Part shown: positions 1 through 25,206 of the stretch, in pieces
Layout of the letters: each line of letters opens with the position of its first letter
How positions within the stretch are numbered: position 1 is the first letter of the stretch
IMG/VR virus record: IMGVR_UViG_3300042520_000658
Span: 1 to 32,102 of that record
Origin: a virus
Reading direction: 5' to 3' (one strand)
DNA length: 32,102 nucleotides
The notes under the pieces: generated by a model
Told to the model about the DNA's origin: nothing
The model's input: the letters and a program-made list of their open reading frames with translations, nothing else
Database searches by the model: none
Made by a program: the position numbers and the translations under genes

Positions 1-2
1 CA

Positions 3-47
3 GAAGGTAGAAAGCACTTAAAAGGTAATTGGTTTTGGAGGCAGTAG
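3..47 (+). CDS. C-terminal end of an unidentified protein (partial)
   Basis: The frame beginning at base 3 is open from the left edge to a TAG at 45-47 and would encode the last 14 residues of a protein ending in KGNWFWRQ. The frame starting at base 1 stops at 21, and the frame starting at base 2 at once, so this is the longest open frame entering the window. Too little is present to name a family. A long palindrome starts 14 bases after the stop, mirroring the way the second palindrome (24835) begins inside a stop codon. Confidence 0.3.
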   Translation, partial: EGRKHLKGNWFWRQ

Positions 48-61
48 TAATTTTTATTTCT

Positions 62-190
62 GCTAACGGTTCTCGGCTTTGCGATGGTGGGGTTTCAAGG
101 CACAAATGTTCAACCCACCACTAAACTTAAATAGAATTACAAATGATTGATATAGTACTAAAGCCCCACTATTGCAAAACCGATGTTAGC
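62..190. repeat. Long imperfect palindrome A (attC-like element)
   Basis: The arms 62-92 and 164-190 can pair: GCTAAC (62-67) with GTTAGC (185-190), then an internal bulge of five bases (68-72) opposite one (184), then about 20 further pairs with one A/C mismatch and two G-T wobbles, including GCGATGGTGGGG against CCCCACTATTGC. The unpaired middle is about 70 bases. A second element at 24835-24923 has the same architecture and the same GCGATGGT/ACTATTGC core. The outer TAAC...GTTA ends, bulge and long loop resemble an integron attC site. No integrase is visible and this reading is inference. A competing inner pairing, GGTGGGGTT (86-94) with AACCCACC (112-119), is also possible. Confidence 0.7.
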
Positions 191-2614: not shown

Positions 2615-3405
2615 TTTTTTTTGTTTTATCTATTCAGGAAAAAAAACACAATAAAACTGTTCGTTATTTAGAAAAGCGAGGGTTTGATTATCGCGTTTTG
2701 ATTCCTAATTGTTTAAATGATGAAATACACATAAGTTACAAAGAAAATGCTATCGTATACGACACCGAAGAATGTAAGAGATTTGTTGATTTTTGCGGAA
2801 CTAACATAACAAATGGAGCGGCAGTAGGACGAGTTGCAAGCATACGTGAGTCAAAAAAAATAAGTGGCGTTTCAGTTTGTTTAGATGATGATTATGGTGG
2901 CGTGTTTGGAAGCAGACCAATAAACACATACACAAAAGACAGATTGATTTATTTAATACTTCAATTACATGAGATGCAAAAAAATACTGGCGTTATTTTT
3001 GGGGGCTATTCAGGGGGGGCAATGCCAAACCTAAAGAGAAATATTATGCAAATTTGGCTATTAGATAAATCATATCAAGAAAACGAACTAAACATGATTT
3101 TAAATGAAGATGTGAATTTTTCAATAAAAAAATGGCAAAGAGGTGTGGCAAATTTTGGATTGGCAACTATTTTAAGAAGTGGAGCACAAACAGCGGAGAT
3201 GGATAAAATAGATGGAAACACAAAACATATTTACGCAACCGATAGGAGTTATAGAAAGTCATACGGTAGTGTGTTACAAGACCCGAATAATGCTAAATTA
3301 ACAATAAACAGACATAACACGAAAAGAGGTGCTTTATGGCATCACAGAGTGAGTTGGATGGGTTTATGCCCAATGATATTAGATAAAGATGTATATTCGC
3401 GTTAA
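2611..3405 (+). CDS. Probable glycosyltransferase of the TET-associated (TAGT) type
   Basis: The 264-residue protein starts with a GT-A-like pattern: IQEKKHNKTVRYLEKRGFDY at the N-terminus, then NGAAVGRVASIRES, then SVCLDDDYGG, a DDD motif fitting a DxD metal/nucleotide-sugar site. Further on are NEDVNFSIKKW, resembling an acidic catalytic segment, and a closing HHRVSW...CPMIL segment. Together with the ParB-like gene directly upstream (4-base overlap), this fits the glycosyltransferases that decorate modified cytosine in some phages. No TET/JBP oxygenase is visible here, so the acceptor is unknown. Base composition is AT-rich, and homopolymers (G5 and G7 at 3001-3018) are unusual for the window. 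Confidence 0.5.
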   Translation: MIFFVLSIQEKKHNKTVRYLEKRGFDYRVLIPNCLNDEIHISYKENAIVYDTEECKRFVDFCGTNITNGAAVGRVASIRESKKISGVSVCLDDDYGGVFGSRPINTYTKDRLIYLILQLHEMQKNTGVIFGGYSGGAMPNLKRNIMQIWLLDKSYQENELNMILNEDVNFSIKKWQRGVANFGLATILRSGAQTAEMDKIDGNTKHIYATDRSYRKSYGSVLQDPNNAKLTINRHNTKRGALWHHRVSWMGLCPMILDKDVYSR

Positions 3406-24387: not shown

Positions 24388-24837
24388 ATGAACAACTTTG
24401 AACGAACATTTGAAACGCGCTACGGCAACCAAACCACTGAAACGCATTATTCAGTTGACCACATAGCGCCAAACGCATGGTCACTAATATGTAACCTTAA
24501 CTTTGAGGGAGAACGTGAACTGAGAACGCTTAAAACGCATGACAGCGAATGGATAGACGAACTGACCTACCTACAAGGCGAAGAGAAACAAGATGCTATT
24601 GCTGAAAGGTTCTGGGCTTTGGACACGAAGCAAACGGTATTGCATTCTGTTATCGAATGGATTGAAACGGAACTCGAGGAAACGGACGAGGAGTGTAACC
24701 TTTGCGCTGGTGATGGCTCGCGATTGGTTAACACAACACGTTTTGACGATGGGAGCGGTGATGACTACGATGGTGATGATGTGGAGTGTTCACGATGTGA
24801 AGGTCGTGGGGAATGTTCGAAGGCTAAGAATTTATAA
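24388..24837 (+). CDS. Early protein with paired CxxCxGxG zinc-binding motifs
   Basis: I chose ATG 24388, which is preceded by AAAACTAAACAAG. An ATG at 24286 in frame would add 34 residues overlapping the preceding gene and lacks that context. The 149-residue product has an acidic N-terminal region (ERTFETRYGNQTTETHYSVD, WIETELEETDEE) and a C-terminal pair CNLCAGDG (Cys103/106) and CSRCEGRG (Cys134/137). These match the DnaJ-type CxxCxGxG repeat and should bind zinc. An Asp-rich linker (DDYDGDD) separates them. No J domain is present. The stop codon forms part of palindrome B. Confidence 0.65.
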   Translation: MNNFERTFETRYGNQTTETHYSVDHIAPNAWSLICNLNFEGERELRTLKTHDSEWIDELTYLQGEEKQDAIAERFWALDTKQTVLHSVIEWIETELEETDEECNLCAGDGSRLVNTTRFDDGSGDDYDGDDVECSRCEGRGECSKAKNL

Positions 24838-24923
24838 CGTTTTGCAGATAGGCGATGGTTGCCTACAATAAATTTAATTATTAACCGAGAAGTTTTTAGC
24901 AACTATTGCCTATGTGCTGTTAG
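24835..24923. repeat. Long imperfect palindrome B (attC-like element)
   Basis: TAAC (24835-24838, overlapping the TAA stop) pairs with GTTA (24919-24922). Beyond a bulge of five bases opposite one, GCAGATAGGCGATGGTTGC (24844-24862) pairs with GCAACTATTGCCTATGTGC (24899-24917), with one mismatch and two G-T pairs. The loop is 36 bases. The layout and GCGATGGT/ACTATTGC core repeat those of palindrome A. Confidence 0.7.
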
Positions 24924-24952
24924 GTGCAGTGCTTCTCACAAACTTAAATAAA

Positions 24953-25156
24953 ATGACAAACAAACAAATTAGAGAACACTTATTAAAAGCTGGTGTAAAG
25001 AACTTGAAAGAGTTTGGTTATCCCGAAGTAACAACTGAAACAATATTGACTGATGAAGTTTATAAAGAGTTATTCAAGTCTATGTTGGAAGATAATAAAG
25101 GGAATGGTAAACAAGTTGATGAAGTTATTGACCAGCTTTTATCGGAGGTCGCATAG
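24953..25156 (+). CDS. Small helical protein in cassette-like module 2
   Basis: The 67-residue protein begins MTNKQIREHLLKAGVKNLKE, has GYPEVTTETILTDEVYKELF and ends NKGNGKQVDEVIDQLLSEVA. It is predicted to be entirely helical, acidic and soluble. I chose ATG 24953 after an A-rich leader rather than the ATG at 24914, which lies inside palindrome B. The ORF is bounded by 15-base inverted repeats, 24919-24933 and 25155-25169, that match at 14 of 15 positions. Its stop codon is inside the conserved 3' block. Function is unknown; a cassette-borne accessory or regulator is plausible. Confidence 0.65.
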   Translation: MTNKQIREHLLKAGVKNLKEFGYPEVTTETILTDEVYKELFKSMLEDNKGNGKQVDEVIDQLLSEVA

Positions 25157-25206
25157 CATTGCACCTAACTAACAAATACACGCTATTATTTAGCACCTAT
25201 ACAACA
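25152..25206. repeat. Conserved 3' cassette block, copy 2
   Basis: This block is nearly identical to 450-503, from CATAGCATT through CTAACTAACAAATACACG and CTATTATTTAGC to ATACAAC. It differs mainly in the bases before CTAAC (GCAC here) and after TTTAGC. The two copies are 24.7 kb apart and follow unrelated genes. Confidence 0.75.

Follow-up and report, generated by a model that had tools for sequence, protein, structure and literature searches.

Integrons that encode IntI (NCBIfam TIGR02249), whether chromosomal or mobile, carry single-gene cassettes with G|TT boundaries and folded attC sites, and possess an attI site at their growing end. The additional domain of IntI has been described as necessary for integron activity (PMC9668308), and among Bacteroidetes proper IntegronFinder 2.0 recorded one complete integron, that of Salinibacter (PMC9024848). 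Clusters of attC lacking integron-integrases, or CALINs, are recognized where two or more attC sites lie close together without intI. Qi et al. 2023 (PMC9892861) described such clusters in phages, and found that IntI1 can recombine some of the phage attC sites with attI1. Nilsson et al. 2020 (PMC7077304) reported that methyltransferase content varies among isolates of Muminvirus and its relatives, and that plating on LMO6 was poorer for LMO9 phages without a specific methyltransferase; that gene has not been tied to a cassette, and the word integron does not occur in their paper.

Here, we analyzed a viral contig of 32,102 bp that carries genes for terminase and endolysin (IMGVR_UViG_3300042520_000658; the whole of this stretch of DNA is referred to as the window). 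Sequence comparison makes a strong case that its two modules are, in all likelihood, integron-type cassettes located at attI-like anchors in a Bacteroidota phage. G|TT boundaries, folded attC, single-gene cassettes and what is best read as an attI-like site at the growing end are shared with IntI-encoding integrons, but the window has no integrase and the integrases of its relatives lack the IntI-specific insertion. The likeness to the CALINs of Qi et al. lies in attC-bounded genes, many of them DNA methyltransferases, and in their occurrence in virulent phages, including a Polaribacter phage, which gave a weak match (27.9 bits) to our attC model R1. Unlike those CALINs, in which gene orientation is typical or mixed, the genes described here are consistently inverted, with many starting inside attC, and arrays of the window type have an attI-like anchor at their end and, in some viral contigs, an IntI-like gene. 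Muminvirus and its relatives possess the same kind of attC ahead of the same kind of gene, and the cassette nature of these genes was recognized in the present analysis. What goes beyond known phage attC clusters is the inverted genes with an ATG in attC, an IntI-like family without the insertion, and a cargo of methyltransferase, Mom and anti-Thoeris genes; among open-licence papers, preprints excluded, we found no report of inverted phage cassettes, attC start codons or this integrase branch.

Matched end boxes and attC sites of two cassettes

The window contains a 74-codon ORF (230-454, + strand; cassette 1) and a 67-codon ORF (24953-25156, + strand; cassette 2). The latter is flanked by GTTAGGTGCAGTGCT (24919-24933), an extended R'' box adjoining an attC, and AGCATTGCACCTAAC (25155-25169), which would act as R' after circularization. 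A sequence-only reading of the window had claimed that these boxes are inverse complements at 14 of 15 positions, that the flanks of cassette 1 are perfect inverse complements of a different sequence, and that flanks match within modules and differ between them. All three claims held. A search of the window allowing up to two mismatches returned only two copies of the cassette 2 end box and no third (0.02 expected by chance), and the cassette 1 flanks (185-194 and 458-467) match perfectly over 10 bases, a length that is unremarkable taken alone. The within-module matching could moreover be extended to a set of 58 cassettes drawn from the window and from related phages. The two ends of one cassette match, past GTT, over a mean run of 5.17 bases; when ends were shuffled among these cassettes the mean run was 1.48, and the observed value was attained in none of 5000 shuffles. 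The mismatch found in cassette 2, at position 11 (G versus A), recurs across many cassettes. The end-box matching in the window is real and not an effect of chance.

An attC site lies upstream of each ORF. We scored these sites with R1, which was built from a 26-sequence alignment that includes attC 2 of the window and one attC from the related phage contig L003, and excludes attC 1. This alignment has one hairpin, in which 15 of 18 pairs carry compensatory changes on both sides. The sequence-only reading had suggested running an attC covariance model on both regions, and both sites scored: attC 1 (61-192) at 125.4 bits on the - strand (E 6e-25, outside the training set) versus 23.5 on the + strand, and attC 2 (24832-24926) at 71.8 bits on the - strand, its canonical top strand, as a training sequence. 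Both sites (125 and 72 bits when rounded) show an imperfect hairpin with AAC...GTT ends whose structure is conserved more than its sequence, and no Rfam family for such hairpins was found in the sources scanned. The strand predicted to recombine folds better than the other at attC 1 (-19.6 versus -14.4 kcal/mol) and at attC 2 (-14.0 on the + strand, the canonical bottom, versus -8.9 kcal/mol), as it does at 106 of 113 viral and 79 of 98 genomic sites.

The mobile unit of cassette 2 spans 24838-25168 (+ strand) and comprises the attC and the ORF, with cut points AA|C on the + strand and G|TT on the other. Cassette 1 (67-466, + strand) is likewise an attC with its ORF, bounded by comparison with L003, L006 and L008, in which other attC sites and genes lie between the same bounding sequences. 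With one gene and an attC, exact G|TT boundaries and R boxes that are complementary once circularized, these modules satisfy the definition of a cassette unit. Positions 1-66 (+ strand) are the 3' end of a preceding cassette truncated by the record start; they are 98.6% identical to L003 4593-4663, and in L003 that cassette is complete. The blocks downstream of the two modules are 91% identical over 55 nt and contain, on the - strand, copies 1 (467-504) and 2 (25169-25206) of the attI-like anchor, which were assigned by comparison of the block across the window and other phages and by motif likeness; copy 2 reads TATTTGTTAG|TTA and resembles the attI-like sites adjoining IntI-like genes. Where the sequence-only reading had seen a downstream block without a full second arm, an attI-like anchor explains the block better. 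The two attC sites of the window are 24.7 kb apart, with the third cassette truncated at the record start, and attC clusters are found in relatives. With regard to function, the 67-aa protein has no Pfam or PHROGs match of note and viral scans assigned it no function; for the 74-aa protein no relative was confirmed in viral contigs, and Pfam and PHROGs gave no function.

Cassette exchange and gene inversion among phages

The anchor block, or its first 18 bases, is present in ten other viral contigs, and between it and a common left flank (TTTGGTTATTGAGTAGTG) lie differing genes, including cytosine and adenine DNA methyltransferases. That different ORFs with matching flanks occur between the same boundaries supports the proposal, made in the sequence-only reading, of integron-type gene cassettes. 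L003 matches window positions 1-71 over 71 nt at 98.6%, continues with a different attC and gene, and then returns to the same block; beyond this common segment and the block, it shares no long stretch of DNA with the window. A clean locus without the module, which that reading had proposed to look for, was found in one related contig, L024, with phage genes on both sides and the array absent. Cassette X adjoins the block in L004, and in L009 it is followed by cassette Y, which itself adjoins the block; this order places the newest cassette nearest the block, as at attI. The exact block had no match in our collection of bacterial genome contigs, and the anchor therefore looks phage-side.

Several other features of these contigs were observed. 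At the junction after cassette X, L005 and L009 carry the same two cassettes, the second attC of which starts AAC|TAACAAATACACGCTGTG and AAC|GTTTTGCAGATACACGCTGTG, respectively, a hybrid of anchor and attC at the common ATACACGCT. L003, which shares a cassette with the window, contains a Hatchet ribozyme (119-256, 77.7 bits), and L022, a related phage contig, contains a DUF805b RNA motif (3164-3196).

Relatives of the 67-aa gene were found in 13 other viral contigs. In eight of these (L363-L370) the DNA match spans the gene and stops at CTAAC (25169) or a few bases past it, after which the sequences differ, giving several distinct right flanks next to the same end boxes, none of these flanks being that of the window. 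In L366 and L368 the matching DNA starts near 24833, which brings in the upstream attC, and the unit is set in other flanks; in L363-L365, L367 and L369 the core of the gene is found with a different upstream attC. The mobile unit is best read as the attC and the ORF that follows it (24838-25168), with attC replacement occurring as well, such that attC and gene are not inseparable.

A BLAST search with one such attC also identified the Muminviruses, isolated virulent phages of the Baltic Sea, whose genomes each contain about a dozen model matches, nearly all on the strand opposite the cassette genes. A clean 506-bp unit with an AACGTT junction distinguishes the genomes of mumin6-1 and mumin6-4, filifjonk9-1 has an additional cassette exactly between the last common methyltransferase and the conserved flank AAC|TACAATATTACATG, and tooticki6-1 has another methyltransferase cassette at that same place. 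Isolated virulent Flavobacterium phages thus differ by the clean gain, loss and replacement of cassettes.

We then compared gene orientation between viral contigs and bacterial genomes. A pattern built on the 3' arm matched contigs in both the genome and the viral collections; the genome contigs sampled are from Bacteroidota, apart from two records that bear the label Chlorobi or Kapabacterium. At 79 of 97 sites in bacterial genomes the nearest ORF lies on the attC strand and ends just before attC; judged by a stop within 80 nt, the same arrangement is found at 91 of 118 sites, as against 8 of 114 in viral contigs (Fisher p 6.8e-30). ORFs of at least 70 codons that start at an ATG inside attC and read outward accompany 73 of 114 viral sites and 5 of 118 genomic ones (Fisher p 2.6e-24). 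The viral matches are a capped sample with near-duplicates, and these p values overstate independence. Starts within attC cluster 45 or 46 nt ahead of the cassette junction, so one arm is read in two frames (MLIEEQNGNFAKPVL... and MIDRITEQPFCQTRV...). In the window, an ATG in attC 1 opens a 23-codon leader, MIDIVLKPHYCKTDVSGMCLFNY, that ends in a stop (143-214, + strand), with the real ORF beginning later, and cassette 2 has its own start. Full-length cassette proteins of L158 and L183 begin with the same leader sequence as the one in attC 1.

In the window and in most viral contigs, gene and attC are on opposite strands, and the usual arrangement, in which the gene lies on the attC strand with attC at its 3' end, is not met. 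A second correction to the sequence-only reading is that the attC upstream of an ORF belongs to that ORF's own cassette, and the gene therefore faces the opposite way from that of a canonical cassette. As facts of sequence, gene inversion and the start within attC are strong, and sequence comparison establishes cassette identity, precise boundaries, exchange, insertion polarity and the inversion of genes.

IntI-like recombinases and the proposed mechanism

As the sequence-only reading had stated of an integrase, no tyrosine recombinase is present in the window, nor is there one in its close relatives. Among 50 viral records searched, eight have a tyrosine recombinase, which in five of the eight is an IntI-like gene in a contig with this attC type; one such contig, G196, also has a terminase. 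Terminase confirmed only some of the large contigs as phage, and the viral status of the rest relies on IMG/VR. IntI-like genes also adjoin arrays of this attC in Flavobacterium silvisoli, Avrilella, Kaistella, Pedobacter and Runella, and 312 kb of control DNA from elsewhere in such host genomes contained no attC of this type. IntI-like genes thus lie beside arrays in hosts and in some viral contigs.

The IntI-like proteins of hosts and phages lack the IntI-specific insertion, having 64-70 residues versus 111 (about 42 fewer), and fall below the TIGR02249 cut-off by parts. In a phylogenetic tree the phage IntI-like proteins form one group (98/92), with canonical IntI separate (100/100). Two defining tests of an integron platform thus fail, as intI is absent in cis from the window and the IntI-specific domain is absent from the proteins of its relatives, and for this reason we describe the system as integron-like. 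As for attI, the newest cassette adjoins the anchor, and the motif TAT..NTAG|TTA is common to the window block and to the attI-like sites adjoining IntI-like genes; no recombination has been shown. This motif is short and is fit poorly by the Pedobacter and L333 sites, making it the weakest link.

Canonical IntI was first suspected as the mobilizing enzyme, given that 46 of the 148 genomes drawn from the phylum had a TIGR02249 score exceeding the cut-off. It was set aside when a model search of seven loci (including L272, L273, L277, L284, L289 and L291, with the IntI-like L264 and L266 kept apart) found no such attC beside intI, and the four canonical loci read by eye had another kind of repeat or none.

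Additional observations concern the recombinases themselves. The 46 of 148 genomes with canonical IntI (phylum of G003) are more than the Bacteroidota literature suggests. The 169.7-kb viral contig G177 (IMGVR_UViG_3300043411_001575) has about 19 attC sites at 98357-117575, ending at an IntI-like gene, and in size parallels, on the phage side, the large integrons of bacterial chromosomes. Two Flavobacterium genomes encode IntI-like recombinases of about 580 aa with a long N-terminal extension (L295:8302-10044 and L268:1168-2925). Lastly, Freya_1 to Freya_10 (MT732463-MT732472), records of one Polaribacter phage species, encode an integrase related to the phage IntI-like proteins and differ in length and in the DNA before the integrase. 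R1 detected no attC within the initial 7 kb of Freya_10; these records might represent another kind of array, or merely a difference in where they start.

We propose that the mobile unit, an attC and the ORF that follows it, would be inserted beside the attI-like anchor by an IntI-like tyrosine recombinase acting in trans from the host or a co-infecting phage. The circular cassette would be joined to the anchor at G|TT via the folded bottom strand of attC, leaving the newest cassette adjoining the anchor. Reversal of the gene relative to attC would let it read with the phage operon, often with a start codon supplied by attC, and the cargo would largely serve counter-defence. This joint reading is likely, but no recombination has been demonstrated, and the action of the recombinase on these sites, its supply in trans and the function of the cargo are only inferred. 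Mobilization in trans is inferred because the recombinase is missing from the window; we regard it as probable, with the host of this phage unknown.

The first of three rival explanations is that these are canonical cassettes, in which attC trails its own gene, the upstream attC belongs to the previous gene, and the attC of the last cassette has decayed into the common block. In its favor, this attC type does trail its gene in bacterial genomes, and matching end boxes alone cannot separate the two readings. However, one cassette is common to L003, L006, L008 and the window while the attC after it differs, L366 and L368 retain the attC found upstream of the window gene, none of the eight contigs has the right flank seen in the window, and array growth adjoins the block. 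We consider this reading very unlikely.

A second possibility is that palindromic repeats recombine with one another, homologously or illegitimately, with no integrase involved. Phages recombine readily, the L005 and L009 junctions resemble a hybrid formed at a 9-bp identity, and gene cores are found with different attC sites. Against this, breakpoints recur at G|TT, boxes match within cassettes and differ between them, which homologous exchange would not yield, and an IntI-like gene sits at the array end in related phages and hosts, making this explanation very improbable as well. Finally, that the hairpins are regulatory or terminator-like elements or the ends of small transposons, with no recombination site, is suggested by their position ahead of genes and frequent overlap with start codons but is all but excluded, as end boxes vary by cassette unlike transposon ends, presence or absence is clean in isolates, the same hairpin trails genes in bacteria, and no Rfam family matches in the sources scanned.

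Cargo and implications

Domain searches of 68 phage cassette genes gave 31 matches to DNA methyltransferases (17 N6/N4, 9 C5, 3 D12 and 2 MT-A70), a tally in which one protein may count in several families, along with one Mom and one Tad3, an anti-Thoeris protein. Host cassettes beside IntI-like genes, a small sample picked by eye, encode an AbiP2-type defence reverse transcriptase (1e-211) and a PD-T4-6-like kinase, with a type I methyltransferase deeper in one host array. The cargo of the phage cassette family is probably counter-defence for the most part, a function that is inferred; that of both window ORFs is unknown.

A bolder reading, toward which we lean only slightly, is that Bacteroidota phages and their hosts share an overlooked class of integron with IntI-like recombinases that lack the IntI-specific domain. 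Hosts would use it to stock defence genes and phages to stock counter-defence genes, phage cassettes would be reversed with attC as 5' leader and start codon, and some phages would bear the integrase, with others, including this one, keeping only the anchor and borrowing the enzyme.

The attC type is perhaps common, given how readily the 3'-arm pattern was matched in both collections. An integrase family without a domain held to be necessary would, if active, challenge that rule, and start codons that lie within a recombination site are an uncommon way of linking mobility with expression. The existence of isolated phages and hosts (Muminvirus; Flavobacterium LMO6 and LMO9) makes these claims directly testable. 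For the phages themselves, such cassettes would mirror the bacterial integrons in which defence genes are stocked, and may provide a route by which counter-defence genes are traded singly and with defined boundaries.
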